Below, in pieces: positions 2,168 to 20,010 of a DNA stretch of 64,000 nucleotides (within the stretch, counting starts at the first letter, position 1; each line of letters opens with the position of its first letter). The stretch lies in assembly GCF_002102355.1 (NCBI RefSeq), contig NZ_LQPT01000070.1, positions 1-64,000 of the forward strand, written 5' to 3'. The stretch is from Mycobacterium sherrisii (GTDB lineage: Bacteria > Actinomycetota > Actinomycetes > Mycobacteriales > Mycobacteriaceae). The position numbers and the translations under genes are program-made. Below the pieces are notes generated by a model. That model saw nothing but the letters and a program-made list of their open reading frames with translations. It ran no database searches and had not been told where the DNA came from.

Positions 2168-2188
2168 TGAAAACGATTGTCGTTATCA
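2168..2188 (-). promoter_or_regulatory. Zur-like operator upstream of the PPE gene
   Basis: Half-sites TGAAAACGA and TCGTTATCA face each other across a 3-base centre (TTG). The arms are complementary except for one position. The AT-rich TGAAAA...TTTTCA-like architecture matches the zinc-responsive Zur boxes of actinobacteria. The site lies about 113 bases upstream of the PPE start codon. In M. tuberculosis, PPE3 (Rv0280) and the downstream ESX-3 genes are known to be Zur-repressed, so the placement agrees with the PPE3 assignment. Binding itself is inferred. Confidence 0.6.
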
Positions 2189-2219
2189 ACAATGACCTGG
2201 TATACCAGCCTGCCGCCCG

Positions 2220-3128: not shown

Positions 3129-3214
3129 CGGACAAACCTCCCGGCGCTCTGAGTCGCGCAAAATGTGATAACGACTGTTTCCTGATATTGTCCGGGCATC
3201 GGGGCGGTGTCAAG

Positions 3215-3916: not shown

Positions 3917-4403
3917 GACGCATGATGCGTTGCGCACCGCGAATCATGAAGCTCGCCAACGGCACCTCGATGCCCAGCGCGGTGATCAACGACAGCCAGA
4001 TGTCGTCGGGCCCCGCGGTCATCAGGTCGAACCAGGCGTCACAGATCAACAGCACGCCCGAGGTGAAGGCCGCGAGCATCAGGATCCGCCGCCGCAGATA
4101 GCCGAAAACCGCTGTCGCCACCATGAATCCGACCAGCAGGACATCGAATCCCACCCAGGTCAGCACCCAGTTGCGCGCAATATAGCTGTCCGGCAACGTC
4201 ATCGCGAGATAGATCAACCAGGGGATCATCGCGACCGAGCCGCCGATCATCAGGCCCAGCCGGATCCGCCGCATTCGCGCCAGCAGCACCGGATCGATCA
4301 CATCGCTCAGTGGCGCCTCCAGCCGGGTGATCAGATCGCGCCGCTGCGCGGCAGTCAGCGCCGCGATCTGCTCATCAGTCAAATGCCGTCGGTCAACATA
4401 CAC
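3849..4403 (-). CDS. Four-helix membrane protein of unknown function
   Basis: The predicted product is 184 residues with a GTG start. A soluble N-terminal stretch (about 1-48), rich in charged residues (LTDEQIAALTAAQRRDL), precedes four hydrophobic segments near residues 49-67, 82-104, 108-125 and 136-152. The C-terminus is short and arginine-rich. I do not recognise a named family. It ends inside the 3' end of the convergent TetR gene, overlapping by 68 bases, and starts 27 bases downstream of the VOC gene on the same strand, so the two may be co-transcribed. No strong ribosome-binding site is visible ahead of the GTG. Confidence 0.65.
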   Translation of the reverse strand: MYVDRRHLTDEQIAALTAAQRRDLITRLEAPLSDVIDPVLLARMRRIRLGLMIGGSVAMIPWLIYLAMTLPDSYIARNWVLTWVGFDVLLVGFMVATAVFGYLRRRILMLAAFTSGVLLICDAWFDLMTAGPDDIWLSLITALGIEVPLASFMIRGAQRIMRLTMMRLWLLDPGMRLWQVPLFP

Positions 4404-4430
4404 CCCCCGGCTCGGCAGTGGTCTTGCCGA

Positions 4431-5012
4431 TCAGCCTACGACGTGCTCCACGGGCCGGCGGTCCGCCGCCGTCTTGGGCACGGCCGGCGTGTCGGTCGCA
4501 TCGAAATCCTTGACCCAGCAAGCGAACTCCAGCGTGATGCCGTCGGGATCCTGGAAATAGAATGAGCGCACATACACGCCGGGATGCAGCGTCGCGGACA
4601 CTTGCATGTCGCTCTCATCGTGATTGAGGATCGGCCCGACCCGCACGCCCTTGTCCTTCAGCCGCTGCCGGTAGGCGTCGAATTTCTCGGCCGGCACATG
4701 AAAGGCGAGATGGTTCATGGTGCTGACCGCGCTGGTGATGTCCCCGATTCCGGGAATGGCGCCCGGCGAGGAGATGCCGGGCACGCGGTCCGGTGCGTCG
4801 GCGAACCAGAAGAATGCGACGCAATCGCCGTTGCCGGCGTCGAAGAAGAAGTGCTGCCCCGCACCCGCAGGCAGATCCAGCGATTTGATCAGCGGCATGC
4901 CCAGGACGTTGCTGTAGAAGTCGACGGTGCGGGCCATATCGGAACACACCAGCGCAACGTGGTTGATCCCGCCGAGTTCGAATTCGCGGTTGACGTTGTG
5001 CGGCTTGATCAT
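4431..5012 (-). CDS. VOC/glyoxalase-superfamily protein (Rv0274-like)
   Basis: The product is 193 residues, the length I recall for Rv0274. The vicinal-oxygen-chelate fold is indicated by INHVALVCSDMARTVDFYS near the N-terminus (first metal-ligand His), LAFHVPAEKFDAYR in the middle, and FYFQDPDGITLEFACW near the C-terminus (DPDG followed by the Glu ligand). The family includes extradiol dioxygenases and glyoxalases; the substrate is unknown. The ATG at 5010-5012 follows GGGGGAG at good spacing. It is divergent from the TetR gene at 5100, with a perfect inverted repeat between them, so it is probably the regulated target. Confidence 0.85.
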   Translation of the reverse strand: MIKPHNVNREFELGGINHVALVCSDMARTVDFYSNVLGMPLIKSLDLPAGAGQHFFFDAGNGDCVAFFWFADAPDRVPGISSPGAIPGIGDITSAVSTMNHLAFHVPAEKFDAYRQRLKDKGVRVGPILNHDESDMQVSATLHPGVYVRSFYFQDPDGITLEFACWVKDFDATDTPAVPKTAADRRPVEHVVG

Positions 5013-5052
5013 GTCGTGGCTCCCCCGTTGAATGTGGGCCTGCCCAGATGCA

Positions 5053-5078
5053 AACTGAATCTAACATCAGATTCAGTT
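5053..5078. promoter_or_regulatory. Perfect inverted-repeat operator between VOC and TetR genes
   Basis: The arms AACTGAATCT and AGATTCAGTT are exact reverse complements (10 bases each) around a 6-base spacer, AACATC. The site sits 22 bases before the TetR start and 41 bases before the VOC start, covering both divergent promoters. This is the expected geometry of a TetR operator controlling itself and its neighbour. Confidence 0.8.
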
Positions 5079-5099
5079 CCGCTCTAGGGGGTAACGAGG

Positions 5100-5738
5100 A
5101 TGCCGATCACGGCGGGCGCCGATAACCGACCGGCCGAGTTCCCGACCCACCGGGGCCGGCGGACACGGGCCGCGATCGACGCCGCCGCGCGAAGGGTGAT
5201 CGCACGCAAAGGAATCCTGGCAACGACCATCGCCGACATTGCCGCGGAGGCGGGCCGCTCGGCGGCCTCCTTCTACAACTACTACGACTCGAAAGAGGCG
5301 ATGGTCCGCCAATGGGCCCTGCGTTTTCGGGACGAGGCCAACGAGCGCGCGCGTTCGGTCACCGGGCACGGGCTGTCCAACCGCCAGCGCGCCCACGAGG
5401 CGGCCGCGGCGCACTGGCACACCTACCGCAACCGCCTCGCCGAAGTGATCAGCGTGTCGCAACTGGCCATGGTCAACGATGATTTCGCCCAATATTGGGC
5501 CGAAATATGCGAAATCCCAATCTCTTTCATTGCCGAGACGGTCAGGCGTGCGCAACAGGAGGGACACTGTGCCCACGACGACCCGCGCCTGATCGCCGAG
5601 GCGATCGTGGCGATGTTCAACCAGTTTTGTTACGCCCAACTCAGCGGGCCCAACTGCGGCGATGCGGACGACCAGGCGTGCATCCGAACCCTGTCCAACA
5701 TCTACTACCGGGCGATCTATGCGAAGGAAGGTCGCTGA
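5100..5738 (+). CDS. TetR-family transcriptional regulator (Rv0273c-like)
   Basis: The product is 212 residues. Helix-turn-helix region: RRVIARKGILATTIADIAAEAGRSAASFYNYYDSKEAM (core IADIAAEAGRSAASFYNYYD). The C-terminal all-helical domain should bind an acyl or aromatic effector, but none can be named. The ATG at 5100 follows CGAGG. The gene is divergent from the VOC enzyme across a perfect palindrome. The downstream hydrolase begins two bases after its stop codon, so TetR, hydrolase and dehydrogenase (5100-7832) look like one transcription unit. Confidence 0.88.
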   Translation: MPITAGADNRPAEFPTHRGRRTRAAIDAAARRVIARKGILATTIADIAAEAGRSAASFYNYYDSKEAMVRQWALRFRDEANERARSVTGHGLSNRQRAHEAAAAHWHTYRNRLAEVISVSQLAMVNDDFAQYWAEICEIPISFIAETVRRAQQEGHCAHDDPRLIAEAIVAMFNQFCYAQLSGPNCGDADDQACIRTLSNIYYRAIYAKEGR

Positions 5739-5739
5739 A

Positions 5740-6873
5740 ATGACACCCGACGGCGGCAATGCGGGAGTCATCCGAGAGTTCGTCGGCCTGCCGTCGCCCA
5801 CGGCCGGACGCGCCGGCGCGGGCGGACATCCGTGCCAAGGGCTGTACCACCGCGGGGTGGGACGCAAGCCGAAGGTGGCCATGATCGCCACCCACTACCA
5901 AATCGACTTCTCCGAGCACTATCTCGCCGACTACATGGCCATCCGCGGTGTCGGGTTTCTCGGCTGGAACACCAGGTTCCGCGGCTTCGAGACCAACTTC
6001 CTGCTCGATCACGCCCTGGTCGACATCGGCGTCGGGGTGCGCTGGCTGCGCGAGGTCCAAGATGTGGATACCGTTGTCCTGCTTGGGAATTCTGGAGGAG
6101 GCTCGTTGATGTCCGCTTATCAGTCACAAGCCGTCGACCCGAATGTGACTCCGCTGCCAGGGATGCGGCCGGCGACCGGGCTCACCGAGTTGCCACCCGC
6201 GGACGGCTACGTGGCCACCGCCGCGCACCCGGGCCGGCCGGAGGTGCTGACCGCGTGGATGGACGCTGCCGTCGTCGACGAGAACGATCCCGTTGCCACC
6301 GATCCCACTCTCGATTTGTTCAACGAGATCAACGGTCCCCCATACTCGGCGGACTTCCTTGCCCGCTACCGTTCGGCGCAGACTGCGCGCAACCACGCCA
6401 TCACCGACTGGGTCGAGACCGAACTCAAACGCGTTCGCGCTGCAGGGTTTTCGGATCGCCCCTTCTCGGTCATGCGGACCTGGGCCGATCCCCGCATGGT
6501 TGATCCCGGCATCGAACCCACCAGGCGGACACCGAACCTCTGCTACGCGGGCGTGCCCGCAAAAGCCAACCGGTCCGCGCGGGGCATCGCGGCGTCCTGC
6601 ACCCTGCGCAGCTGGCTGAGCATGTGGAGTTTGCGGGTGGCGCAAACGCGGGCCGAGCCACATCTGAAGCGAATCAACTGTCCCGCGTTGGTGATCAACG
6701 CCGAGGCGGATACCGGGGTGTTTCCGTCTGACGCCCAACGCATCTACGACGCGCTCGCCAGCTCCGACAAATCACGGACGTCGATCGACACCGATCACTA
6801 CTTCACCACCCCCGGCGCGCGCAGCGAGCAAGCGGATACCATCGCCAGGTGGATCAGCAAGCGGTGGCGTTGA
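5740..6873 (+). CDS. Alpha/beta-hydrolase family protein (Rv0272c-like)
   Basis: The product is 377 residues, the same length I recall for Rv0272c. The nucleophile elbow is GNSGGGS at about residues 134-140, following VVLLGNSG. The late INAEADTGVFP segment and DHYFTTPGARS provide the usual acid and histidine positions. The substrate is unknown. The start ATG at 5740 lies one base after the TetR stop codon. A longer open frame from 5662 would overlap TetR and is not credible. It overlaps the downstream dehydrogenase by 25 bases, which suggests coupled translation. Confidence 0.82.
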   Translation: MTPDGGNAGVIREFVGLPSPTAGRAGAGGHPCQGLYHRGVGRKPKVAMIATHYQIDFSEHYLADYMAIRGVGFLGWNTRFRGFETNFLLDHALVDIGVGVRWLREVQDVDTVVLLGNSGGGSLMSAYQSQAVDPNVTPLPGMRPATGLTELPPADGYVATAAHPGRPEVLTAWMDAAVVDENDPVATDPTLDLFNEINGPPYSADFLARYRSAQTARNHAITDWVETELKRVRAAGFSDRPFSVMRTWADPRMVDPGIEPTRRTPNLCYAGVPAKANRSARGIAASCTLRSWLSMWSLRVAQTRAEPHLKRINCPALVINAEADTGVFPSDAQRIYDALASSDKSRTSIDTDHYFTTPGARSEQADTIARWISKRWR

Positions 6874-7832
6874 GAGTTCTCGCGCATTTTGTACCAGGTA
6901 ACAAAGTTCTCGAATTTCTTGCAGCCGAAGCAGATTGGCTCGACATCCGGTGGTGTGCCGCCGACGACGACACCACCTTCTATCGCGAGCTACCCGAGGC
7001 CGACGTAATTTGGCATGTACTACGCCCGTTGTCAGGCGATGATTTACGGCGCGGTGAACGGCTGCGGTTGGTGCACAAACTCGGCGCCGGGGTCAACACC
7101 ATCGACGTCGACGCCGCGATCGAGCTCGGCATCGCTGTCGCCAACATGCCCGGCGCGAATGCGCCCTCCGTGGCCGAGGGCACGGTGCTGCTAATGCTGG
7201 CGGCGCTGCGTAAGTTGCCGGCCCTGGACCGAGCTACCCGACAAGGCCGCGGCTGGCCGCTCGATCCCGAACTGGGCGAGACCGTCCGCGACATCGGGGG
7301 CTGCACCGTCGGCTTGGTCGGCTACGGCAACATCGCCAAACGGGTCGGCGAGATCGTCGCGTCGATGGGCGCCACCGTGGTGCACACCAGCACCCGCGAC
7401 GACGGTCAGCCCGGCTGGCTGCCGCTGCGCGAGTTACTGGCCGTCAGCGACATCGTCTCGCTACACCTGCCGTTGACGGAAAAGACCCATCACCTGCTCG
7501 ACGAGGATTCGATCGCCGGCATGAAACCCAGGGCGGTGCTGGTCAACACCTCGCGGGGCCCAATCGTCGATGAAAGGGCCCTCGTCGCGGCGTTGCGGGA
7601 CGGGCGGCTGGCCGCCGCGGGCCTCGACGTGTTCGAGGACGAGCCGGTGGCGCCGGACAACCCTCTGTTCGAATTGGACAACGCGGTGCTGACGCCGCAC
7701 GTCACCTGGTACACGGCCGACACGATGCGCCGCTACATGATCGAAGCGGTGCAGAATTGCCGTCGGCTGCGCGACGGCGAGCCCTTGGCGCAGCTGGTAA
7801 CCCCGATGGTCAGCCAACCGACCAGTTATTAG
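6849..7832 (+). CDS. D-isomer-specific 2-hydroxyacid dehydrogenase
   Basis: The product is about 327 residues. An N-terminal substrate-binding lobe is followed by a Rossmann fold with VGLVGYGNIAKRVG (GxGxx(A/G) nucleotide-binding motif with Tyr inserted as GYGNI). The catalytic triad is readable: Arg in NTSRGPIVDE, Glu in DVFEDEPVA and His in LTPHVTW. The family oxidises or reduces 2-hydroxy/2-oxo acids with NAD(P)H, as phosphoglycerate and glyoxylate dehydrogenases do. The GTG at 6849 lies inside the upstream hydrolase gene; a GTG at 6864 is an alternative start. The operon position suggests a catabolic role with the hydrolase and FadE6. Confidence 0.88.
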   Translation: MDQQAVALRVLAHFVPGNKVLEFLAAEADWLDIRWCAADDDTTFYRELPEADVIWHVLRPLSGDDLRRGERLRLVHKLGAGVNTIDVDAAIELGIAVANMPGANAPSVAEGTVLLMLAALRKLPALDRATRQGRGWPLDPELGETVRDIGGCTVGLVGYGNIAKRVGEIVASMGATVVHTSTRDDGQPGWLPLRELLAVSDIVSLHLPLTEKTHHLLDEDSIAGMKPRAVLVNTSRGPIVDERALVAALRDGRLAAAGLDVFEDEPVAPDNPLFELDNAVLTPHVTWYTADTMRRYMIEAVQNCRRLRDGEPLAQLVTPMVSQPTSY

Positions 7833-7882
7833 ATTGGGAGTGCTTGGCCGAAACGAGCCCCGGACGCATGGGAAGGCGACCA

Positions 7883-10108
7883 ATGCCGATCGCAATAAAC
7901 CCCGAGCATCAACAGTTGGCCGACTCGGTGCGATCTCTGGTGGCGCGCGTCGCGCCGTCGGAGCTGCTGCACGCGACCCTAGAAACAGCAACAGCGACCC
8001 AGACCCCGATCGAGAACCCGCCGTCGTACTGGCGGCCGGCCGCCGAGCAAGGCTTGCAGGGCGTCCACCTGTCGGAGTCGGTTGGCGGGCAGGGATTTGG
8101 CCTGCTGGAGCTGGCCATCGTGCTGGCCGAGTTCGGCTACGGCGCCGTACCCGGGCCGTTCGTCCCGTCGGCGATCGCCAGTGCCCTCATTGCCGCGCAC
8201 GACCCCACCGCCAAGGTGCTGGCCGAGCTGGCGTCCGGCGCCGCCATCGGCGCCTACGCGCTGGATTCCGGTTTGACCGCCACCCGCAAGGGTGACGTGC
8301 TGGTGATCCGCGGCGAGGTCCGCGCCGTACCCGCCGCGGCGCAGGCATCGGTGCTGGTGCTGCCGGTGGCGATCGACAGCGGTGACGAATGGGTGGTGCT
8401 AGACGCCGACCAGGTCGAAATCGAGCCGGTGCAAAGCCTCGACCCGCTGCGCCCGATCGCGCACGTGCGGGCCGAGGCACTCGAGGTGGGTGACGACGTG
8501 CTGTTGAGCAGGTTGACCATGACCACCGCATACGCGCTGATGTCCACGCTGCTGTCGGCGGAGGCGATCGGGGTGGCGCGTTGGGCGACCGATACCGCCG
8601 CCGAGTACGCCAAGATCCGCGAGCAGTTCGGCCGGCCCATCGGCCAGTTCCAAGCCATCAAGCACAAGTGCGCCGAGATGATCGCCGACACCGAGCGGGC
8701 CACCGCGGCCGTATGGGACGCGGCGCGGTCGCTCGACGAGGCCAGCCAGAACGGTTGGGACGTGGTCGCATCGGGGGTGGAGTTCGCGGCGGCGGTGGCC
8801 GCGACGCTGGCGCCGGCCGCCGCGCAGCGGTGCACCCAGGACTGCATTCAGGTGCACGGCGGCATCGGCTTCACCTGGGAACACGACACCAACGTGTACT
8901 ACCGCCGCGCGCTGATGCTGAACGCCTGCTTCGGCCGCCGCTCGGACTACCCGCAAAAGGTGGTCAATACCGCGACGACCACCGGGATGCGCGCGGTCGA
9001 CATCGACCTGGACCCGGAGACCGAGAAGCTGCGCGACGACATCCGCGAGGAAGTCGCCGCGCTCAAGGCCATGGAGCGCGGGCCACGGGCCGTGGCTCTT
9101 GCCGAGGGCGGCTGGGTGCTGCCGTATCTCCCCAAGCCGTGGGGCCGGGCGTCCAGCCCCGTCGAACAGATCATCATCGCGCAGGAATTCGCCAGCGGCC
9201 GGGTCAAGCGGCCCCAGGTCGGCATCGCCGCCTGGATCATCCCGTCGATCGTGGCGTTCGGCACCGAGGAGCAAAAGCAGCGGTTTTTGCCTCCGACCTT
9301 CCGCGGCGAGATGATCTGGTGTCAGCTGTTTTCCGAGCCGGGCGCCGGATCGGACCTGGCCGGACTCACCACGAAGGCCACCCGGGCCGACGGGGGGTGG
9401 CGCATCACCGGCCAAAAGATATGGACCACCGCCGCGCAATACTCGCAATGGGGCGCCCTGCTGGCCCGCACCGACCCCAACGCTCCGAAGCACAACGGCA
9501 TCACCTACTTCCTGCTGGATATGCGCAGTGCGGGCGTCACGGTCAAGCCGCTGCGTGAGCTCACCGGCAACGCGATGTTCAACACGGTCTACATCGACGA
9601 CGTGTTCGTGCCGGATGAGTGTGTGCTCGGCGAGGTGAACCGGGGCTGGGAGGTCAGCCGCAACACGCTGACCGCCGAACGGGTCTCGATCGGCAGCAGC
9701 GACGCGAATTTCCTAGCGACCCTTCCGCAGTTCGTCGAATTCGTTCGCGACGGTCATCTCGATCCGGTGGCGCAGAACCGGGCGGGCCAGCTGATCGCCG
9801 AGGGCCACGCGGTCAAGTTGCTCAACTTGCGGTCGACGCTGCTCACACTGGCCGGCGGCGCACCGGATCGGGCCATGCCGTCCGCGGCAATCTCGAAGCT
9901 GTTGTCGATGCGCACCGGGCAGGGCTATGCGGAGTTCGCCGTGTCCTCGTTCGGCACCGACGCCGCGATCGGCGATCCCGAGGAACTGCCCGGCAAGTGG
10001 GGCCAGTACCTGCTGGCCAGCCGGGCCACCACGATCTATGGCGGGACATCGGAAGTGCAGCTGAACATCATCGCCGAGCGGCTACTGGGCCTGCCGCGCG
10101 ACCCGTAG
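7883..10108 (+). CDS. fadE6: Acyl-CoA dehydrogenase FadE6, two fused ACAD domains
   Basis: The product is about 741 residues, roughly twice the usual acyl-CoA dehydrogenase length. Residues 1-370 form one ACAD domain (AKIREQFGRPIGQFQAIKH; VHGGIGFTWEHDTN) and residues 385-741 a second (WCQLFSEPGAGSDLAGL; GGWRITGQKIWTT; IYGGTSEVQ). The flavin-binding serine loop SEPGAGSDL is in the second half only. At the position equivalent to the catalytic Glu of medium-chain dehydrogenase (IYEGT) the second half has Gly (IYGGT), and the first half has no such motif, so the base must lie elsewhere. The ATG at 7883 follows GGGAAGG. The name follows Rv0271c by synteny and length. Confidence 0.88.
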   Translation: MPIAINPEHQQLADSVRSLVARVAPSELLHATLETATATQTPIENPPSYWRPAAEQGLQGVHLSESVGGQGFGLLELAIVLAEFGYGAVPGPFVPSAIASALIAAHDPTAKVLAELASGAAIGAYALDSGLTATRKGDVLVIRGEVRAVPAAAQASVLVLPVAIDSGDEWVVLDADQVEIEPVQSLDPLRPIAHVRAEALEVGDDVLLSRLTMTTAYALMSTLLSAEAIGVARWATDTAAEYAKIREQFGRPIGQFQAIKHKCAEMIADTERATAAVWDAARSLDEASQNGWDVVASGVEFAAAVAATLAPAAAQRCTQDCIQVHGGIGFTWEHDTNVYYRRALMLNACFGRRSDYPQKVVNTATTTGMRAVDIDLDPETEKLRDDIREEVAALKAMERGPRAVALAEGGWVLPYLPKPWGRASSPVEQIIIAQEFASGRVKRPQVGIAAWIIPSIVAFGTEEQKQRFLPPTFRGEMIWCQLFSEPGAGSDLAGLTTKATRADGGWRITGQKIWTTAAQYSQWGALLARTDPNAPKHNGITYFLLDMRSAGVTVKPLRELTGNAMFNTVYIDDVFVPDECVLGEVNRGWEVSRNTLTAERVSIGSSDANFLATLPQFVEFVRDGHLDPVAQNRAGQLIAEGHAVKLLNLRSTLLTLAGGAPDRAMPSAAISKLLSMRTGQGYAEFAVSSFGTDAAIGDPEELPGKWGQYLLASRATTIYGGTSEVQLNIIAERLLGLPRDP

Positions 10109-10114
10109 ACAGAT

Positions 10115-10150
10115 CCATGCCGACCCGAGGCCGGTCTCGGGTCGGCATGG
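10115..10150. terminator. Perfect 15-bp hairpin after fadE6
   Basis: CCATGCCGACCCGAG (10115-10129) pairs exactly with CTCGGGTCGGCATGG (10136-10150) around a 6-base loop, 7 bases after the fadE6 stop codon. There is no U-tract, as is common for mycobacterial terminators. Terminator function is inferred from position. Confidence 0.6.
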
Positions 10151-10169
10151 ACGACTTGATTCGGGTGGG

Positions 10170-10213
10170 CCACGCCGGTCTGCGGCCGACTCGGGCACGT
10201 CAGACCGGCGTGG
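10170..10213. terminator. Second hairpin in the fadE6 / Gly-rich gene gap
   Basis: CCACGCCGGTCTG (10170-10182) is an exact reverse complement of CAGACCGGCGTGG (10201-10213), with an 18-base loop, followed on the + strand by TTTCCCC. Together with the preceding hairpin it separates fadE6 from the convergent secreted-protein gene and may act in both directions. Confidence 0.5.
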
Positions 10214-10287
10214 TTTCCCCCCAATGCGGATCGGCCGACCTATAACTCTGGCAGGACGAGGCCGGCCGACCGCACGCTCGAGGCGGC

Positions 10288-10662
10288 TCACCACCAGGGG
10301 CGCCACCCGTGGCCCCAGCCACCGTGGCCGGCCCAACCGTGGCCCCAGCCGTGACCCCAGCCGTGACCCCAGCCGCCATGACCCCAGCCACCGCCGCGGC
10401 CCCAGCCGCCATGGCCCCAACCATGGCCACCCCAGCCGTGGCCGCCGGGCCGCTCCGGAAGCAAGCCGGGCCCCGGGCCCAGCGGTAAGCCGCCGTGCGG
10501 TCCGACAGCTTCGAAAGTCGTGGCGGGAGCGGGCGCCGGTGCGGCCTGCGCCACCGGGACACCGCCGAACAGCATCGCTCCGGCTATCGCACCGGCGCCG
10601 ACCGCCCCAGCGGCCGCGCCTCGCATCGATCGCAGTGACATCGTCGATCGCAGTGACATCAT
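10288..10662 (-). CDS. Secreted Gly/His/Trp-repeat protein
   Basis: The product is 124 residues. An N-terminal export signal has Arg residues, a hydrophobic stretch (AAAGAVGAGAIAGAMLFGG) and a likely cleavage after VAQA, at about residue 41. The mature part starts Ala/Pro-rich and ends in tandem GHGWGHGGWG-type repeats with a WRPWW terminus. The ATG at 10660-10662 follows AAGGAG. The signal region contains an internal duplication (MSLRST then MSLRSM), caused by an 18-base tandem DNA repeat. I recognise no family. The His/Trp-rich glycine repeats could bind metal or pack against surface polymers; that is inference. It is read away from the AT-rich TACTGA region. Confidence 0.7.
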   Translation of the reverse strand: MMSLRSTMSLRSMRGAAAGAVGAGAIAGAMLFGGVPVAQAAPAPAPATTFEAVGPHGGLPLGPGPGLLPERPGGHGWGGHGWGHGGWGRGGGWGHGGWGHGWGHGWGHGWAGHGGWGHGWRPWW

Positions 10663-11263
10663 TGTGGTGAGCTCCTTCCGAGACCTCAGTTCCCCGACAT
10701 CTCGAACGCTACGCATAAATTGCTAGGCAAACAATGGGAATAGCAATATTTCTCGCTGTGAATTCCTTGACAGTCTCTGTTTTTCTGGGTTTCCTGAATT
10801 CCGTTAATCAGTATTGGATAATTTCTTTTGCGATATTCCTGAATTACACAATTCAGGAGCGTCGCGGTTACTGAGGTCAGTATCGGCGTAGCCAGTGATA
10901 TGCCGAGCTTACCGGACCTGTACTGATGTACTGAGCTCAGTATCGTGCCTTCTCAGTAAATGGCTACTGGAGTTGATTCATCGAATTTATTATTGTTGAC
11001 CCCGGCCACGATAATGGATTGAGACGGCGTGTCAAGACCTCGAATTGATTTTAACCGGGACCCGCCTGACAGTTTGCGACATACTCGTGCAGCTAATTTA
11101 GGGAATTTCCAGGTCACCGCGCCGTGACGGTCCCGTCGCGCGCGGTAAAACCCGCTCTCCCCGCGACGCGACTTACGCTGGCGTCAGTGAGACAATCAGT
11201 AGACAACGCGCCACGGAAGCACTGATCTACTGATTGGCGCCCCCACGGGAGGACGGTCGCCCA
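10663..11263. repeat. AT-rich intergenic region with nine TACTGA/TCAGTA hexamers
   Basis: This gene-free stretch is clearly more AT-rich than its surroundings, especially 10730-10860. It contains the hexamer TACTGA or its complement TCAGTA at 10808, 10869, 10877, 10921, 10929, 10937, 10953, 11196 and 11228. Two pairs form 14-base palindromes: TACTGAGGTCAGTA (10869-10882, imperfect centre) and TACTGAGCTCAGTA (10929-10942, perfect), exactly 60 bases apart. A third pair sits in CAATCAGTAG (11193-11202) and CTACTGATTG (11227-11236). A separate inverted repeat, CCTGAATT-ACAC-AATTCAGG, is at 10838-10857. About 0.2 hexamers would be expected by chance in this length. It lies between two divergent genes and probably carries both promoters. 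Confidence 0.75.
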
Positions 11264-11650
11264 GTGAGCTTCAACCCCGGCCACATCGGGCCCAGCGCCG
11301 GAACATTCCGCGCGCGGGTATCTGCCTCGACGCCCCCGGGAGATGCGGCACCAACCGAGCGCATCACGGGTTTCCGCCAGCTCCGCCCCCAGCGCCTGGT
11401 CGACGACGCGGCAGACCCGCGCTCACGCAAGGCCGATCCGTCATCCCCGCGGATCCAGCGCACCCGTCGCACCGTCGACCTGCCGGCCACTACCCACCGT
11501 GCCCTCGACATCTGGCAGCGCGAGGCCGCCGACCGGCTCGGCGTGGCCCGCGTCACCGGTCAGGAGGTACTCACCGCGCTGATCGACCAGCTGTTGGCCG
11601 ATCCCAAGCTCTCGGATCAGATCATCCGGGCCATTCAAGACCGCCGTTAG
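11264..11650 (+). CDS. Small DNA-binding protein, ribbon-helix-helix-like C-terminus
   Basis: The product is 128 residues. The first 65 are disordered in appearance (Pro, Ser, Arg, Asp). The last 60 read as a strand TRRTVDLPA followed by helices (THRALDIWQREAADRL; TGQEVLTALIDQLLADP; LSDQIIRAIQDR). This resembles ribbon-helix-helix proteins and the small ParB-type centromere-binding proteins of actinobacterial plasmids. The GTG at 11264 follows GGGAGGA (11247-11253). No ParA gene is nearby. The upstream region carries a dense TACTGA array that is the obvious candidate binding site. It converges with fadD2, whose stop is 6 bases away. The family assignment is by eye and tentative. Confidence 0.6.
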   Translation: MSFNPGHIGPSAGTFRARVSASTPPGDAAPTERITGFRQLRPQRLVDDAADPRSRKADPSSPRIQRTRRTVDLPATTHRALDIWQREAADRLGVARVTGQEVLTALIDQLLADPKLSDQIIRAIQDRR

Positions 11651-11656
11651 TGCCCG

Positions 11657-13336
11657 CTAGTCGATCTGCATCTCGCGCAGCTCGCGCTTGAGGATCTTGC
11701 CCGTCGGGTTACGCGGCAGCTCGTCGAGGAAGATCACTTCCCGCGGCACCTTGTACCGGGCCAAGTGGTCACGCACGTATCCCTTGATGGTGTCCTCGTC
11801 CAGATCGGCGTCGCCCTTCTTGACGACGAACGCACGCAACCGGTGACCCCACTCCTTGTCCTCCACACCGATCGCGGTCGCCTCCACAACGTCGGGGTGG
11901 CCGCTGATTAGGTCTTCGACCTCGGCGGGGAAGACGTTCTCGCCGCCGGAGACGATCATCTCGTCGTCACGCCCACTGACGTAGAGCAGCCCGTGCTCGT
12001 CGAAATAGCCGACGTCGCCCGACGACATCAGGCCGTCGATGATCTGCTTGTGGCCACCGCCGGTGTAGCCCTCGAACGGGAAGGCGTTGCCGACGAAGAT
12101 GCGCCCCACCTCACCCTGCGGCAACTCGTTGCCGTTGTCGTCGAGGATCTTGACCTTCACGCCCTTGACGACCGGTCCGACCGTCGCCGCGTCTTTCTGC
12201 AGGTCCTCGGGCCGGGCAATGGTGGCGAAGGCAATCTCCGTCGAGCCGTACATGTTGTAGATGACGGGGCCGATGTCCTTCAGCGCGCGGGTGGCCAGTT
12301 CGGCGCCCAGCTGCGACCCGGACACAAAAATGATCTTCAGGCTGGACAGATCGGGCTTGGAGTCCATCTTCTCGATGGTGTCGAGGATGCGCGACAGCAT
12401 CACCGGGACCACGACCATCGCCGTCACCTTGTGCTTTTCGATGTCCTCGAGCACCAGGGGCGGCTTGAACTTGCGCCGCAGCACCAGCGTCGAGCCCAAA
12501 AACATCGCGATCGTGGCATGCAGATAACCCAGCGCGTGGAACATCGGTGCCGGCAGCGAGGTGACCTCGTTCGCCTTGAACGGAACGTGCGACAAGATCC
12601 CGCCGACCGGCGCCAACGTGGGCGGGGTGCTGCGGTTGGCGCCCTTCGGGGTGCCGGTGGTGCCGCTGGTCAGGATGATGATCGACGCATGCTTGGTGGC
12701 CTTGGGAGCCGGCTCCTTGCTGCTGCGCTTGATCAGGTCGGCAAGCGTCTCGTCGGTGCTGCCCGATGGCTCGTCGCTGTCCGGGTTGACACCCAGCGCC
12801 CGCAACTTGCCCAGGTCCGGCTCGGCTTTGCTGACGGCCTTGGTGTACTCGTCGTCATAGATGATCACCTTGGCGCCCTCGCGCTCGGAGACCTCGTTGA
12901 TCTGCGGTCCGGAAAATTCGCTGTTGAGCAGGATGATGCGGGCGCCGACGCGGGCGGCGCCATAGTTGGCGATCAAGAACCAGCGGTGGTTGCGCGCCAG
13001 GATCGCCACGCCGTCGCCGCCCTTGACGCCCCGTTCGAGTAACCCGTTCGCCACCGCGTGGGCCGCCTCGTCGAGCTCGCGGTAGCTGAACTCGCCCTCC
13101 TCGTCGATGCACGCGGCGCGGTCCGGGTGGCGGCGGGCATTGAGCGCCGGAAGCATGCCGAACTCGCCCCATTTGACGATGTCGGAGGCCAGCGCGGCGT
13201 AATTTTGTGGCGGTTCTAGCCGGAACGCTCCTGCTTCGAAAATCTTGCGCACGTAGTGCAACTCGGCCGAGCCGCGTTCCACGTACTGCTGGAGCTTGGC
13301 AACGGCTTGCCCGGGAAGGCCAGGAAGGTTAGGCAT
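11657..13336 (-). CDS. fadD2: Fatty-acyl-CoA ligase FadD2
   Basis: The product is 559 residues (Rv0270 is about 560). ANL-superfamily motifs are all present: phosphate loop LTSGTTGTPKGANR at about residue 225, YGSTEIA (A5) near 360, SGRDDEMIVSGGENVFPAEVE (hinge and A8; SGRDDEMIVSGGENV) near 450, and the catalytic lysine region RNPTGKILKREL at the C-terminus. The enzyme activates fatty acids to acyl-CoA through acyl-adenylates. The ATG at 13334-13336 starts MPNLPG. It is divergent from the polymerase gene (57 bases apart), so they share a short promoter region. Confidence 0.9.
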   Translation of the reverse strand: MPNLPGLPGQAVAKLQQYVERGSAELHYVRKIFEAGAFRLEPPQNYAALASDIVKWGEFGMLPALNARRHPDRAACIDEEGEFSYRELDEAAHAVANGLLERGVKGGDGVAILARNHRWFLIANYGAARVGARIILLNSEFSGPQINEVSEREGAKVIIYDDEYTKAVSKAEPDLGKLRALGVNPDSDEPSGSTDETLADLIKRSSKEPAPKATKHASIIILTSGTTGTPKGANRSTPPTLAPVGGILSHVPFKANEVTSLPAPMFHALGYLHATIAMFLGSTLVLRRKFKPPLVLEDIEKHKVTAMVVVPVMLSRILDTIEKMDSKPDLSSLKIIFVSGSQLGAELATRALKDIGPVIYNMYGSTEIAFATIARPEDLQKDAATVGPVVKGVKVKILDDNGNELPQGEVGRIFVGNAFPFEGYTGGGHKQIIDGLMSSGDVGYFDEHGLLYVSGRDDEMIVSGGENVFPAEVEDLISGHPDVVEATAIGVEDKEWGHRLRAFVVKKGDADLDEDTIKGYVRDHLARYKVPREVIFLDELPRNPTGKILKRELREMQID

Positions 13337-13393
13337 AGCCTCACCCTATGTGACGCGGGTCGCAACGAGGCCAGAAAATCTTCCAGAATTACG

Positions 13394-14635
13394 ATGGATC
13401 CCATGACCGGCCCGGTGTCATTGGAGGTTGCCGGACACGACGTCACGATCACCCACCCGGACCGGGTGGTGTTCGACGCTCATGATGGGACCGGTCCATT
13501 CACCAAGCTGGATCTGGTGCACTACTACCTCGCGGTGGCCGAGGGAGCGTTGCGCGGGGTCGCAGGCCGGCCCATGATCCTGAAACGCTTCGTCAAGGGC
13601 ATCGCGGTCGAGGCGGTGTTCCAGAAGCGGGCGCCGGCAAACCGGCCGGACTGGGTTGACGTCGCCGAACTGCACTACGCGCGCGGCACCTCGGCGGCGG
13701 AAGCCGTCATCCACGACGCCGCCGGACTCGCCTGGGCGATCAACTTAGGGTGCGTGGACCTCAACCCGCATCCCGTGCTCGCCAGCGACCTCGACCATCC
13801 CGACGAACTGCGGGTGGATCTGGACCCGATGCCCGGGGTCGAATGGCAACGAATCGTCGAGGTGGCCCAGGTGGCCCGCGAGGTGCTCGAGGACTACGGC
13901 CTGGTGGCTTGGCCGAAGACGTCCGGCTCCCGGGGGTTTCACATCTACGCCCGGATCACGCCGCGCTGGGAATTCCGTCAGGTCCGGCTGGCGGCCCAGA
14001 CAGTGGCGCGCGAGGTGGAGCGGCGCGCGCCCGACGCGGCGCCCAGCCGCTGGTGGAAGGAAGAACGCGAGGGCGTGTTCGTCGACTTCAATCAGAACGC
14101 CAAGGACCGCACGGTCGCATCGGCCTACTCGGTGCGGGCCACTCCGGATGCTCGGGTCTCCACGCCGCTGCACTGGGACGAGGTCGCCGACTGCCGGCCG
14201 GAGGCGTTCACGATCGCCACCGTGCCGGATCGGTTCCCCGCGATCGGCGACCCGTGGGAGGGGATCGACGACGCGGCGGGGGAGCTGGACCGCCTGCTGA
14301 TGCTGGCCGAGGAGCTCGGCCCGCCCGAGAAGGCACCGCGGGGCGCGGGGAAGCACGCCGACGGCAGGCGGCAGTCGTCCAAGCCGCTGATCGAGATCGC
14401 CCGGACCAAGACCAAAGACGAGGCGATGGCCGCGCTGGACACCTGGCGGGCTCGCCATCCCGCCGCGTCCGAGCGGTTGTGGCCGGCCGACGTGCTGGTC
14501 GACGGGATGCGTGGGCCGAGCTCGATCTGGTACCGGATCCGGATCAACCTGCAGCACGTGCCGGTCGGCCAGCGCCCCGCGCAGGAGGAGCTGATCGCCG
14601 ACTACAGCCCGTGGGAGAAACCTCAGCAGCGGTAG
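13394..14635 (+). CDS. Stand-alone LigD-type primase-polymerase (Rv0269c/PolD2-like)
   Basis: The product is about 413 residues. It is a LigD polymerase (archaeo-eukaryotic primase) domain without ligase or nuclease domains. Motifs: RVDLDPMPG (paired metal-binding aspartates), WPKTSGSRGFHIYARI (SGSRGFHIYARI, nucleotide-binding), and VFVDFNQNAKDRTVASAYSVR (VFVDFNQNAKDRT). An N-terminal HPDRVVF block and a C-terminal helical extension of about 90 residues follow the family layout. M. smegmatis PolD1 and PolD2 are biochemically characterised homologues that add ribo- or deoxynucleotides in gap filling. The ATG at 13394 was chosen; an ATG at 13403 is also possible. An open frame extends upstream to 13256, but that part is antisense to fadD2. 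Confidence 0.85.
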   Translation: MDPMTGPVSLEVAGHDVTITHPDRVVFDAHDGTGPFTKLDLVHYYLAVAEGALRGVAGRPMILKRFVKGIAVEAVFQKRAPANRPDWVDVAELHYARGTSAAEAVIHDAAGLAWAINLGCVDLNPHPVLASDLDHPDELRVDLDPMPGVEWQRIVEVAQVAREVLEDYGLVAWPKTSGSRGFHIYARITPRWEFRQVRLAAQTVAREVERRAPDAAPSRWWKEEREGVFVDFNQNAKDRTVASAYSVRATPDARVSTPLHWDEVADCRPEAFTIATVPDRFPAIGDPWEGIDDAAGELDRLLMLAEELGPPEKAPRGAGKHADGRRQSSKPLIEIARTKTKDEAMAALDTWRARHPAASERLWPADVLVDGMRGPSSIWYRIRINLQHVPVGQRPAQEELIADYSPWEKPQQR

Positions 14636-14704
14636 CGGCCCGGCGGAGCACCGGAATGGCACGGTCGCTGCAGGTCAGCGTCGCGGACGCGATACTCTCA
14701 CGCG

Positions 14705-15703
14705 ATGCGACAGGGATGGAATCGGCGGGGGTTCCTGCAGCTCGCCGCTGCCGCCGCCGCAGCCGGGGTGGCGGGTCCCCTAGCGGGGTGCTCGTCGCCC
14801 AAGCAGACGTCGAACTCCCCGAGTTCCGAAGGCGTGACGATCACCCATTTGTTCGGCAAGACCGTGATCAAAGCGCCGCCCAAGCGAGTGGTCAGCGCCG
14901 GCTTCACCGAGCAAGACGACTTGCTCGCGGTCGGCGTCGTGCCGGTCGCGGTGACCAACTGGTTCGGTGACCAGCCGTTCGGTGTGTGGCCCTGGGCCCA
15001 GGCCAAACTCGGTGGGGCGCAGCCGGTGATGTTGAACCTGGACAACGGAATTCCGGTCGATCAGATCGCCAGTCTCAAGCCGGACCTGATCGTGGCCATC
15101 AACGCCGGCGTCGATGCCGACACCTACCAGAAGCTGTCCGAGATCGCCCCCACGATCGCCCAGTCCGGCGGCGACGCCTTCTTCGAGCCGTGGAAAGACC
15201 AGGCCACCGCGATCGGCACCGCGGTGTTTGCGGCCGACCAGATGAAAACGCTCATCGACGGCGTCGACAAGCAATTCGCCGCCGTCGCGCAGAACCACCC
15301 GCAGTGGCAAACCAAGAAGGCACTGTTGTTGCAGGGCAGCCTGTTTCAGGGCTCGGTGGTGGCAACCGCGGCGGGCTGGCAGACCGACTTCTTGAACCAG
15401 ATGGGATTGGTCATCGCCGACAGCATCAAGCCCTTCGTCACCGGTCACCGCGCCGTCATCCCGCGCGATCAGACCAAAGCGGTACTCGACTCCGCCGACG
15501 TGCTCATCTGGACGACCGAGAATCCGGACCAGCAGAAGGCGCTGCTCGCCGACCCCGAGATTGCGGGATCGCAGGCGACCGCACAGAACCGGCACGTCTT
15601 CACCACCAAGGACCAGGCCGGTGCGATCGCGTTCGCCTCGGTGCTGAGCTACCCGGTCGTCGCCGATCAGCTGCCGCCACAAATCGGCAAAATCCTGGGT
15701 TAG
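14705..15703 (+). CDS. fecB2: Iron-siderophore substrate-binding lipoprotein FecB2
   Basis: The product is 332 residues. The N-terminus has a twin-arginine-like NRRGFLQL followed by a hydrophobic stretch and a lipobox LAGC (Cys at about 28), so the mature protein is a lipid-anchored cell-envelope protein. The remainder is a type III periplasmic binding fold: PPKRVVSAGFTEQDDLLAVGV, IASLKPDLIVAINAG, LSEIAPTIAQSG and the C-terminal ADQLPPQIGKIL. This matches Rv0265c (FecB2) by position. The transport permease and ATPase genes are not adjacent. No IdeR-type iron box is visible in the 69 bases upstream. Confidence 0.87.
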   Translation: MRQGWNRRGFLQLAAAAAAAGVAGPLAGCSSPKQTSNSPSSEGVTITHLFGKTVIKAPPKRVVSAGFTEQDDLLAVGVVPVAVTNWFGDQPFGVWPWAQAKLGGAQPVMLNLDNGIPVDQIASLKPDLIVAINAGVDADTYQKLSEIAPTIAQSGGDAFFEPWKDQATAIGTAVFAADQMKTLIDGVDKQFAAVAQNHPQWQTKKALLLQGSLFQGSVVATAAGWQTDFLNQMGLVIADSIKPFVTGHRAVIPRDQTKAVLDSADVLIWTTENPDQQKALLADPEIAGSQATAQNRHVFTTKDQAGAIAFASVLSYPVVADQLPPQIGKILG

Positions 15704-15803
15704 CGCCCGCTCTTTGAGTGTTCGGTAAGGCACCTCTGGCAGTGCTCGAAAATCCCGCTCCGCCCCCTTTCGGCTGCCCCGATGCCGAAGTTACCGTCGG
15801 GTA

Positions 15804-16466
15804 ATGAGCGTGACGGATCTTCCCACCGAGCCGCCGGCCGAACTTGACGGCCACGTCGTTCTCGATTACGGCGACCAGGCGCTGCTGGTCGAATGTGGCA
15901 GCACCGCCGAGGTATTGGCATGGGCCGACGCGCTGCGCGCGGCGGCGCTGCCCGGAGTGCTCGACATCGTCCCGGCCGCCCGCACGGTGCTGGTCAAACT
16001 GGACGGTCCGCGCTACCAGGGCGTCGTCCGCCACCGGCTACGCAAACTCCGCGTCGTCCCGGAGACGCCGACTTCCGGGCCGCGCCGTGCCGACGTCGTG
16101 ATCGACGTCGTGTATGACGGTCCGGACCTCGCCGAAGTCGCCGCCCTCACCGGGCTGACCACCGCACAGGTCATCAACGCCCACACCGCAACGTTGTGGC
16201 GGGTCGGATTCACCGGTTTCGCACCGGGTTTCGCCTACCTGGTCGACGGCGACGCGCGGCTGCAAGTGCCACGCCGCTCCGAACCGCGGACCTCGGTGCC
16301 CGCCGGAGCGGTTGCCCTGGCCGGCGAGTTCAGCGCGATATATCCGCGCCAATCCCCCGGCGGCTGGCGACTGATCGGTCGCACCGACGCGGTTCTGTGG
16401 GATCTGCAGCGACCCGATCCCGCCTTGCTGACGCGCGGCATGTGGGTTCAATTCCGGGCCGCGTAG
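15804..16466 (+). CDS. pxpB: 5-oxoprolinase subunit PxpB
   Basis: The product is 220 residues of the KipI/PxpB (carboxyltransferase domain subdomain C-D) family: ALLVEFxx-like ALLVECGS near the N-terminus, [14 protein letters not shown], and the conserved [16 protein letters not shown] and [17 protein letters not shown] blocks. With PxpC and PxpA it hydrolyses 5-oxoproline to glutamate using ATP. The start ATG at 15804 overlaps a TTAC-N6-GTAA element (15791-15804). PxpC follows after 10 bases. No PxpA gene is seen nearby. Confidence 0.88.
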
Positions 16467-16476
16467 CGGAGGACAC

Positions 16477-17385
16477 ATGACCACCCTCGAAATTCTGCGT
16501 ACCGGTCCGCTCGCCGTCGTCCAGGACCTGGGCAGGGTCGGTCAGGCCGACCTCGGCGTCGGCCGGTCCGGCGCCGCCGACCGCCGTGCGCACAAACTGG
16601 CCAACCGGCTGGTCGCCAACCCCGACGACCGCGCGACCATCGAAGTGACGTTTGGCGGTTTCGCGGCCCGGGTACGCGGCGGCGACCTCGACATCGCGGT
16701 GACCGGTGCCGACACCGACCCGTCGGTCAACGGAATCAAGTTCGGCACCAACAGCATTCACCACGTCCGGGACGGCGAAGTAATTTCGCTGGGCACCCCG
16801 CGCGCGGGCCTGCGGACCTATCTGGCGGTGCGCGGCGGCATCTGCGTGGAGCCGGTGTTGGGTTCGCGAAGCTACGACGTGATGTCGGCGATCGGTCCCG
16901 CGCCGCTGTCGGCCGGGGACCAGTTGCCGGTCGGCCAGCACACCGAGCGGTACCCCGAACTCGATCAGGCGCCCGTGGCGGCCATCACCGGCGACACCGT
17001 CGAGCTGTTGGTGGTTCCCGGACCGCGCGACGATTGGTTCGTCGATCCCGACGTCCTGGTGCACACCGACTGGGTGGCATCCGACCGCAGCGACCGGGTC
17101 GGGATGCGGCTGCTGGGCCGCCCGCTGCAATACCGCGTCCCGGACCGGCAATTGCCCAGCGAAGGCACCACTCGAGGTGCAATCCAGGTGCCGCCCAACG
17201 GATTACCGGTAATCCTGGGCCCCGACCACCCGATCACCGGGGGCTACCCCGTCATCGGCGTGGTCATCGACGAGGACGTCGACAAGGTCGCCCAGGTGCG
17301 CGCGGGCCAGCACGTGCGGCTGCACTGGGCGCGACCCCGCGGGCCGTTCGGAGCCCACGCTCACGCCGGCGCGGCGCTCTCCTGA
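16477..17385 (+). CDS. pxpC: 5-oxoprolinase subunit PxpC
   Basis: The product is 302 residues of the biotin-dependent carboxyltransferase-like KipA/PxpC family. Visible blocks are [27 protein letters not shown] (e.g. [19 protein letters not shown]), [36 protein letters not shown], and near the C-terminus [19 protein letters not shown] and [16 protein letters not shown]. It works with PxpB as the ATP-dependent part of 5-oxoprolinase. The ATG follows GGAGGA. This is the Rv0263c position. Confidence 0.88.
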
Positions 17386-17410
17386 TGCGGGCGCGGCGAT
17401 AAGACGGTAG

Positions 17411-17965
<555 letters not shown>

Positions 17966-17999
17966 CCCCCGGTGTGGTCGAAATCTCGTTATTGACAAC

Positions 18000-18034
18000 G
18001 TGATTCATCACAGTGCGGTCGAGTACGCTGTGAT
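18000..18034. promoter_or_regulatory. Overlapping inverted repeats upstream of narK3
   Basis: GTGAT-TC-ATCAC (18000-18011) is a perfect palindrome, and ATCACAG (18007-18013) pairs with CTGTGAT (18028-18034) across 14 bases. The two share the ATCAC arm. They lie about 175-205 bases before the narK3 start codon and just after a TTGACA (17992-17997). A regulator-binding role is inferred from symmetry only. Confidence 0.35.
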
Positions 18035-18206
18035 TCTGCAACGTGGTCGGCCCCATTGTTGTGGTGTGCGCCACACGCGTTGAGCGCCCTCACATGGCCA
18101 CCGCGGGATGGGTGAGCGGAAATTCACGCCCGGGACACTGCGGGCATCGCCCGGGCAACAAAGGATTCCTACCGTGATCGGCAAGAGCGATGACGATTGG
18201 AGTCCC

Positions 18207-19613
18207 ATGAAAATCTCGCTGGGCCGTTCGCATGTCCTTTCGGACTGGGACCCGGAGGACACCGCGGCCTGGGAGGCCGGCAACGACAAGATTGCCCGCC
18301 GCAACCTGATCTGGTCGGTGTTCGCCGAACACATCGGTTTCTCGATCTGGTCAATCTGGTCGGTGATGGTGTTGTTCATGCCAGCGTCGGTTTACGGGTT
18401 CTCCGCAAGCGACAAGTTCTTGCTGGGCGCCATCGCAACGTTCGTCGGCGCATGCCTGCGCTTCCCCTACACCTTTGCCACCGCGAAGTTCGGCGGCCGC
18501 AACTGGACGGTGTTCTCCGCGGTGGTGCTGCTGATCCCGACCGTGGGCACCATCGGACTGTTGGCCCACCCCGGTCTGCCGCTCTGGCCGTATCTGCTGT
18601 GCGCCGCGCTGGCCGGCTTGGGAGGTGGCAACTTTGCGTCGTCCATGACGAACATCAACGCCTTCTACCCGCAGCGACTGAAGGGCTGGGCACTGGCGGT
18701 CAACGCCGGCGGCGGCAACCTCGGTGTGCCGCTGATCCAACTGGTCGGGCTGCTGGTGATCGCGACCGCGGGCGCGCGCCAGCCGTACTGGGTGTGCGCG
18801 ATTTACCTTGTGCTGCTTGCGATAGCGGGCATCGGCGCGGCGCTGTACATGGACAACCTGCCGCAATACCGGATCGAGATGGACACCATGCGGGCGGTGC
18901 TGCGCGAACCACACAGCTGGGTGATCGCGCTGTTATACATCGGCACCTTCGGCTCGTTCATCGGCTTCTCGTTCGCGTTCGGCCAGGTGCTGCAGATGAA
19001 CTTTCTCGGCAGCGGAGAGAACACAGCGCAGGCGTCGCTGCACGCCGCCCAGATCGCTTTCCTGGGGCCGTTGTTGGGGTCACTGTCGCGCGTTTACGGC
19101 GGGAAGCTGGCCGACCGCATCGGCGGCGGCCGGGTCACCCTCGCCGTCTTCTGCTCGATGATCCTGGCCGCGGGAATCCTCGTCGCCGCAAGCACTTTCG
19201 GCGGCCACGGCGCGCACCGGACGCCACCGGCGACGATGGTCGGCTACGTGATCGGATTTGTCGCGCTGTTCATCCTGTCCGGCATCGGCAACGGTTCGGT
19301 GTACAAGATGATCCCGTCGATCTTCGAGGCGCGCAGCCACGCGCTGCAGATCGGCGAGGCGCAGCGCCGACAGTGGTCACGGTCCATGTCCGGCGCGCTG
19401 ATCGGCGTGGCCGGCGCCATCGGCGCCCTGGGCGGTGTGGGCGTCAACCTCGCGCTGCGCCAGTCGTATCTGCATAGCGGTACCGCAACATCGGCGTTCT
19501 GGGCTTTCATGTTCTGCTACGTCGCGGCCGCGGTGCTGACCTGGGCGGTGTACATCCGCCGCCCGGTCGAGGTCATCACACCGAGCGAGACCGCAGCGCT
19601 GGCACACGTGTAG
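18207..19613 (+). CDS. narK3: Nitrate/nitrite transporter NarK3
   Basis: The product is 468 residues, a major-facilitator transporter with about 12 hydrophobic segments. Nitrate/nitrite porter features: ARRNLIWSVFAEHIGFSIWSIWS in TM1 (ARRNLIWSVFAEHIGF), FGGRNWTVFSA, the glycine-rich signature AGLGGGNFASSMTNINAFYP (GLGGGNFASSM) and PSIFEARSH. It moves nitrate and/or nitrite across the membrane. The ATG at 18207 follows GGAG; an open frame from 18108 has no convincing site. Rv0261c is about 469 residues. The next gene is a close paralogue in tandem. Confidence 0.88.
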   Translation: MKISLGRSHVLSDWDPEDTAAWEAGNDKIARRNLIWSVFAEHIGFSIWSIWSVMVLFMPASVYGFSASDKFLLGAIATFVGACLRFPYTFATAKFGGRNWTVFSAVVLLIPTVGTIGLLAHPGLPLWPYLLCAALAGLGGGNFASSMTNINAFYPQRLKGWALAVNAGGGNLGVPLIQLVGLLVIATAGARQPYWVCAIYLVLLAIAGIGAALYMDNLPQYRIEMDTMRAVLREPHSWVIALLYIGTFGSFIGFSFAFGQVLQMNFLGSGENTAQASLHAAQIAFLGPLLGSLSRVYGGKLADRIGGGRVTLAVFCSMILAAGILVAASTFGGHGAHRTPPATMVGYVIGFVALFILSGIGNGSVYKMIPSIFEARSHALQIGEAQRRQWSRSMSGALIGVAGAIGALGGVGVNLALRQSYLHSGTATSAFWAFMFCYVAAAVLTWAVYIRRPVEVITPSETAALAHV

Positions 19614-20010
19614 CCCGACGCTGGACAAATTCAATGAGAAAATCTCCGTCGACGCGAAATGTATTGCACCTCACTTCGAATTCGGTGACGGGCTGCTGTG
19701 GTCGCCGACTACCTCGTCTGGGCCCGCCCGTATTGTCGTCCGCACCGCTCTGAGCTGTGACTTTCCATCAGCAAATTCCGTTCAGGTTTCTGCCAGATAA
19801 CTAGGATTCAACTTACAGGGGAAATAGGCCGAAATGAGTTGACGGAGTTCGGTTCCGAATGTGAGCATCGGAACAACGCACGGCGTCCTCTTTCAATTCG
19901 GGGCGGCCGCAAGGGCATTCAAAGTCAGACTCACCGCAGCTCATTCCGTCACGGGGAGCCGCTTGACGCCCAGACGATTCGACCGCTCCGTCACGAAAGG
20001 TACAGATCGC
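19614..20010 (+). promoter_or_regulatory. 397-base gap before second narK, with a GlnR-like box at 19786-19801
   Basis: No gene is visible here. GTTTC-TGCCAG-ATAAC at 19786-19801, read on the other strand, is GTTAT-N6-GAAAC. It resembles the actinobacterial GlnR a-site/b-site arrangement, with a complete GAAAC half and an imperfect first half. It lies about 210 bases upstream of the second narK start, consistent with nitrogen control of nitrite genes. The remainder is moderately AT-rich with no further structure that I can support. Confidence 0.35.

Follow-up and report, generated by a model that had tools for sequence, protein, structure and literature searches.

Chromosomal descendants of a plasmid partition protein in mycobacteria, with TACTGA repeats that probably serve local gene regulation

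The window analysed here is a stretch of 64,000 nucleotides of Mycobacterium sherrisii DNA and forms part of contig C70 in the 5.56-Mb genome G000. At 11264..11650, on the plus strand, a GTG-start open reading frame encodes a ribbon-helix-helix (RHH)-like protein of 128 amino acids, adjacent to an array of short repeats as the original prediction had it. The assignment draws on the open reading frame, on homologues, on a tree and on an AlphaFold2 model, and the locus belongs to class A of the three classes defined below. On the minus strand, at 10288..10662, a divergent open reading frame encodes a small, putatively secreted Gly/His/Trp-rich (GHW-rich) protein with a signal-peptide-like start, a frame that recurs in class A. 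Its longest start lies at 10716; the ribosome site is better for the ATG at 10662.

Nine exact copies of the hexamer TACTGA, or of its complement TCAGTA, span 10808-11233 of the window. They start at 10869, 10921, 10929 and 11228 on the plus strand and at 10808, 10877, 10937, 10953 and 11196 on the minus strand. The whole 64 kb holds 16 copies, against 5.6 expected. In shuffles of the intergenic region 10665-11263, which has all 9, the mean was 0.22 copies and the maximum 4 (n=5000), and over 500 shuffles the highest count for any hexamer was at most 7. The predicted density of nine hexamers in 426 bases, with about 0.2 by chance, is thus what we found. Counts and conservation delimit a distal array at 10808..10958, with no strand assigned, which has seven exact hexamers and two 14-bp palindromes, TACTGAGGTCAGTA at 10869 and TACTGAGCTCAGTA at 10929, separated by the 60 bases foreseen. 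The proximal array, at 11185..11235 and likewise unstranded, consists of TCAGTA at 11196, CACTGA at 11220 and TACTGA at 11228, and is strongly conserved in 32 class A loci. Its hexamers at 11196 and 11228 are the third inverted pair, which had also been recognised near the gene start. Two features were absent from the original prediction: the 8-bp step between hexamer units of the array, and the one-mismatch unit CACTGATC at 11220, which is in register with the hexamer at 11228. When G000 was scanned for the paired-site pattern TACTGANNTMMKKA, the array made up 5 of the 6 match rows and 3 of the 4 places. The G+C content of 10690-11060 is 44.5%, against 66.6% for the window, and the array region includes the 350-bp stretches that are poorest in G+C within the window.

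Immediately 5' of the proximal array, on the plus strand, is a block at 11163..11184 that is conserved in the 32 class A loci and includes a -10-like TACGCT (11174-11179). The mycobacterial -10 element follows the pattern TANNNT, and by this pattern the block is a putative promoter of the RHH gene; a sigma-70 scan did not have the TACGCT element among its listed promoters. Beside the distal array there is also an inverted repeat, CCTGAATT-ACAC-AATTCAGG (10838-10857), partly conserved in class A, which is perhaps the site of another regulator.

Homologues of the RHH-like protein were found in 154 of 396 genus genomes at E<=0.01 and in 132 at E<=1e-10. Class statistics were taken from 87 loci (the window and 86 others), which are part of the genus-genome places and plasmid matches found. 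The classes were set by the neighbouring genes: ParA defines class C, fadE, or fadD with ligD, defines class A, and the rest is class B. Class A comprises 42 loci at the fadE/fadD-type site, including the window, class B 22 loci elsewhere, and class C 23 loci directly behind ParA. Because neighbours define the classes, the synteny of class A and the lack of ParA in class A and B loci hold by definition; the separate tests of ParA absence were a genome-wide ParA scan and a set of species-named loci. The latter set has 80 of 126 relatives (66 class A, 14 class B) and partly overlaps with the genus genomes. Class C is mostly made of plasmids, with some genome contigs that may not be plasmids, and includes the duplicate plasmids L043/L054, L056/L115 and L064/L116. 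Removal of identical upstream stretches before hexamers were counted left 42, 22 and 18 loci in classes A, B and C, respectively. Among the species that carry class A loci are M. triplex, M. genavense, M. colombiense, M. parascrofulaceum, M. asiaticum and M. lepraemurium.

Alignment of 32 class A loci shows that the hexamers at 10869, 10921, 10929, 11196 and 11228 are strongly conserved, and that those at 10808 and 10953 are poorly to moderately conserved. Together with the block 11163-11184, the conserved hexamers form islands near each end of the stretch between the two divergent genes, and the segment at about 10965-11085 is unconserved. The palindromes stressed in the original prediction are present, but their second halves are less well kept, with about 50-70% conservation per base at 10877 and poor conservation at 10937. 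The unit therefore matters more than the palindrome.

The commonest upstream hexamer is TACTGA in classes A, B and C alike. Its density per kb, upstream and elsewhere in these loci, is 8.32 and 0.05 in class A, 6.14 and 0.08 in class B, and 4.15 and 0.31 in class C. At least two exact hexamers are found upstream in 42/42 class A, 21/22 class B and 11/18 class C loci; absence of such conservation had been named in advance as evidence against the prediction. Exact hexamers are missing upstream in 4 of the 18 class C loci, one of which, L060, is cut short by the start of its record, in one of the 22 class B loci (L093) and in 3 of the 14 species-named class B loci. In L093 and the latter three (L192, L195 and L201, from Mycolicibacter), the RHH gene and a divergent GHW/HW-rich frame are all kept, and the operator may have diverged. 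With up to one mismatch allowed, a neighbouring unit occurs at offsets 8, 16 and 24 with frequencies of.35,.12 and.12 in class A,.51,.23 and.15 in class B, and.56,.37 and.26 in class C; at other offsets between 5 and 23 the frequency is only 0-.05. Successive exact spacings are multiples of 8 in 58/129 cases in class A, 22/44 in class B and 33/39 in class C, so that class A is looser than class C.

On plasmids, the homologue has a partner. In all 15 plasmid neighbourhoods that were fetched, out of 25 records matched, the gene directly upstream of it is annotated as 'ParA family protein'; on the circular pCAZ1, this adjacency spans the record start. The hosts are Mycobacteroides, Mycolicibacterium, Mycolicibacillus, Rhodococcus, Streptomyces, Streptosporangium and Couchioplanes. 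In mycobacterial class C, TACTGA sites are found at most loci both ahead of parA and in the gap that separates it from parB, frequently with an 8-bp step. The plasmids L043, L056, L062, L064 and L065 show parS-like TACTGA clusters around parA. M. abscessus plasmids (L057, L058 and L066) have no more than three copies around the operon: two ahead of parA and one after parB, with none in the gap that separates the two genes. All eight of these plasmid records give the gene that follows parA as 'hypothetical protein', but it looks like parB. In Rhodococcus plasmids (L055, L059, L067 and L068) the 900 bp upstream contain at most one exact TACTGA, and their centromere sequence probably differs from TACTGA. 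A ParA-ParB pair that looks intact, with TACTGA sites, was also observed in a chromosome-size contig of 5.6 Mb (L117 of class C, G219:C1:2857828-2858842), perhaps as an integrated plasmid or element.

The ParA partner is missing from the window copy. No ParA match was found within positions 1-20000 of the window and no plasmid-type ParA in G000 at E<=1e-5, in line with the earlier statement that none is near the gene. Plasmid ParA was detected in 12 of the 396 genus genomes, and the homologue adjoins it in 12/12; in the other 120 of the 132 genomes with a strong homologue, no plasmid-type ParA was found at E<=1e-30, and none of the 80 species-named loci has ParA. In a tree of the domain, classes A and B form one clade inside class C (SH-aLRT 86), with A nested in B, and the sister of this clade is a plasmid protein of M. 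boenickei (support 93). The alignment has 67 columns, L063, which lacks the domain pattern, was excluded, and long-branch warnings were raised among class C rows. The topology gives moderate support to one capture, followed by relocation. Descent from a plasmid ParB with loss of the partner, as in ParB-derived regulators, is supported by sequence comparison. Of the plasmid-relic option raised at the outset, the ancestry holds: plasmid relatives adjoin ParA, many with the same TACTGA repeats.

The AlphaFold2 model of the window protein has a disordered tail, followed by helices 75-92, 99-112 and 114-127. Structure searches gave weak matches only, and by sequence this protein matched no solved structure credibly; an RHH fold of the C-terminal domain is likely. 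The domain is under purifying selection, with pN of.02-.15 and pS of.37-.66 in 11 pairs.

The tail has changed between classes. Among 81 non-identical proteins, with start codons picked by script, the strict N-terminal motif [AK][DE][KRQ]I[KR]A[NS]A is present in 15/18 class C, 0/42 class A and 0/21 class B proteins; looser forms were found in 2/21 and 4/21 class B proteins. This motif is a putative ATPase activator, equivalent to the type Ib arginine finger, and taken as such a tail it is not present in the window protein. A different motif, T[EQ][RP][ILVFM], which in the window is Thr31-Glu-Arg-Ile (codons 11354..11365, plus strand), occurs in 42/42 class A, 21/21 class B and 0/18 class C proteins. 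N-terminal to the basic region, no tail residue other than its threonine is the same in all 63 class A and B rows. In the species-named set, the motif is kept in 63/66 class A and 14/14 class B proteins, the three misses being TEHL (M. lepraemurium) and TVRL, twice.

These comparisons support the ancestry, the conservation of the sites and the lack of both ParA and the N-terminal motif of class C. On this basis we favour, with some confidence, the reading that a type Ib-like ParB was captured by a mycobacterial chromosome together with its TACTGA centromere repeats, lost ParA and now acts as a local transcription regulator; its binding, repression, target promoter, bridging and control through the threonine are what we infer. 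Dimers of the C-terminal RHH-like domain would occupy successive 8-bp TACTGANN units, whichever way these point. Of the two clusters, the proximal one would lie in the leader, just 3' of the promoter-like block of the RHH gene, so that the protein should repress its own gene. The distal cluster would control the divergent promoter of the GHW-rich secreted protein, and the two clusters, which are about 240 bp apart, could be bridged.

More tentatively, phosphorylation of Thr31 by a kinase such as PknA or PknB may have replaced the ParA-facing tail; it would alter cooperative binding to the old centromere array and thereby control a secreted Gly/His/Trp-rich envelope protein. The context of the invariant threonine, P-T-[EQ]-[RP]-[LIVF], absent from class C, appears partly kinase-like. 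PMC7164672, in the part available, reports that phosphothreonines of M. tuberculosis that are sensitive to PknA depletion are enriched for Pro at -1 and +2 and for Leu/Val at +3. Residue +2 of the tail threonine is mostly Pro in class B, and Arg in the window and most of class A. The kinase switch is made less likely by the residue named at +2 in that part of PMC7164672, which is Pro, not Arg.

A divergent GHW-rich frame is found across the array in 40/42 class A loci; the exceptions are L047, near a contig end, and L125, just under the score threshold, in which a search for three signature strings of the GHW protein found none. In the species-named set, 55/66 class A loci have the frame and 8 misses have less than 900 bp upstream; with at least 900 bp upstream, 3/58 show no GHW frame (L170, L171 and L172). 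None of the 7 class C loci examined has it. In class B, 8/22 loci have an HW-rich secreted divergent gene, and 13 of the other 14 have instead a divergent ligase-like gene of ~1080-1150 amino acids. The target is therefore not one conserved gene. By eye, this second gene (L051-L053, L091, L092, L094, L095, L099, L105-L107, L122 and L123) resembles acyl ligases/reductases.

If the array served the RHH gene only, the GHW-rich neighbour would be a passenger. This simple autoregulation, which we consider unlikely, agrees with type Ib centromere proteins being described as repressors in the accessible text of PMC5016525, with the proximal cluster being the best conserved part, and with a class B divergent neighbour that varies between sites. 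It does not account for the company that the array keeps with GHW-rich genes in class A and HW-rich genes in class B. The signal-peptide ends of these genes also look related in 2/12 pairs compared between the two classes (E 4e-8 and 3e-9, both to L108), although this resemblance could be convergence. Furthermore, the RHH gene is missing from 49 fadD loci, 33 of which have a fadE-type gene within 1.5 kb, and three of the 49 keep the GHW gene (L217, L218 and L245) and have 4, 1 and 6 hexamers, respectively; a class B protein is encoded elsewhere in each of these three genomes. In the remaining 46 loci there is no GHW gene and never more than one stray hexamer. Among the comparative results, this joint retention best tells an operator apart from a relic centromere, although only three loci show it. 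With the conserved islands at both intergenic ends, it makes an operator role most likely, and of the options first proposed, operator and plasmid relic fit together.

The chromosomal protein and its array might, less probably still, act as a decoy that competes with incoming plasmids with TACTGA centromeres and destabilises them by incompatibility. The recognition hexamer is identical on plasmid and chromosome, and the available part of PMC10954446 reports a genomic island that stabilises itself and expels its helper plasmid via the plasmid parABS. In 11 of the 12 ParA genomes the ParA-linked copy is the sole homologue found, G385 having a second match, where a simple product (12 x 120 / 396) gives ~3.6 expected overlaps, the homologue and ParA scans being presumed to cover the same 396 genomes. 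However, the near-absent overlap may only mirror clades: chromosomal carriers with species names are Mycobacterium and Mycolicibacter (one titled Mycolicibacterium), and mycobacterial plasmid carriers are Mycolicibacterium, Mycobacteroides and Mycolicibacillus. A decoy would also leave unexplained the hexamers kept with the GHW gene and the conserved divergent layout.

That the array is a working chromosomal centromere or condensation site, served by a ParA encoded elsewhere, is very improbable. The layout is like that of a plasmid centromere, but G000 and 120 of the 132 strong-homologue genomes have no plasmid-type ParA at the thresholds given above, and the class C motif is missing in 63/63 class A and B proteins, results that tell against the partition or condensation role first suggested. 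A search of 8 genomes for hexamer pairs within 28 bp, in two of the three pair orientations, also found only isolated pairs away from the homologue loci. An inert plasmid remnant, to which the orphan gene with no ParA would conform, can be practically dismissed given the strong purifying selection on the domain and, over the 42 loci that share a site, the conserved hexamers and a new threonine that never varies.

The regulator reading can be compared with known systems. Type Ib systems, according to the text available from PMC5016525, combine small RHH proteins, which carry an arginine finger at the N-terminus and act as repressors, with direct and inverted repeats upstream. Like ParG of TP228, omega of pSM19035 and ParB of pCXC100, the window protein is small, with a flexible tail and a C-terminal helical domain; it has a basic strand-like segment before the helices, an upstream array of short direct and inverted repeats, and relatives that adjoin the ParA ATPase on plasmids. 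Unlike these systems, the window copy is chromosomal, lacks the adjacent ParA partner, has lost the class C motif and faces a divergent secreted gene. It descends from such a system but, lacking both the partner and the tail motif, is not a working member.

The parABS of mycobacteriophage RedRock also has 8-bp repeat units, eight per parS in the part of PMC7157519 available, and from that source and the sequence, its repeats flank the par genes on both sides. The RedRock ParA is homologous to the ParA of TACTGA plasmids (30% identity, E 1.5e-16). In contrast, the RedRock repeat is TCGAGTAG-like, not TACTGANN, and its ParB had no BLAST match to the plasmid ParB of L056, so kinship with a RedRock-type ParB was not found. 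A tblastn search of phages with the window and plasmid ParB found nothing. The ParB-derived transcription regulator VirB of Shigella offers a parallel to the fate proposed for the window protein; VirB is, however, a CTP-binding ParB, while the window protein is small, RHH-like and of the type Ib kind. Were the kinase reading true, the window protein would be the type Ib equivalent of VirB, and signals would reach it by way of the tail that once contacted ParA.

The comparison yields a testable parS, the 8-bp TACTGANN, and a parB for a set of plasmids from mycobacteria and related actinobacteria. It also gives a candidate regulator for a conserved secreted Gly/His/Trp-rich protein, and the ligase-like divergent gene of 13 class B loci is a possible second target. 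Many mycobacteria seem to carry on their chromosome a descendant of a plasmid-inheritance system, a protein with its ladder of binding sites and no motor, that has been re-employed as a gene switch. This points to a probable path by which plasmid partition turns into gene control on the chromosome, with the protein, the operator sequence and the plasmid relatives all still visible.
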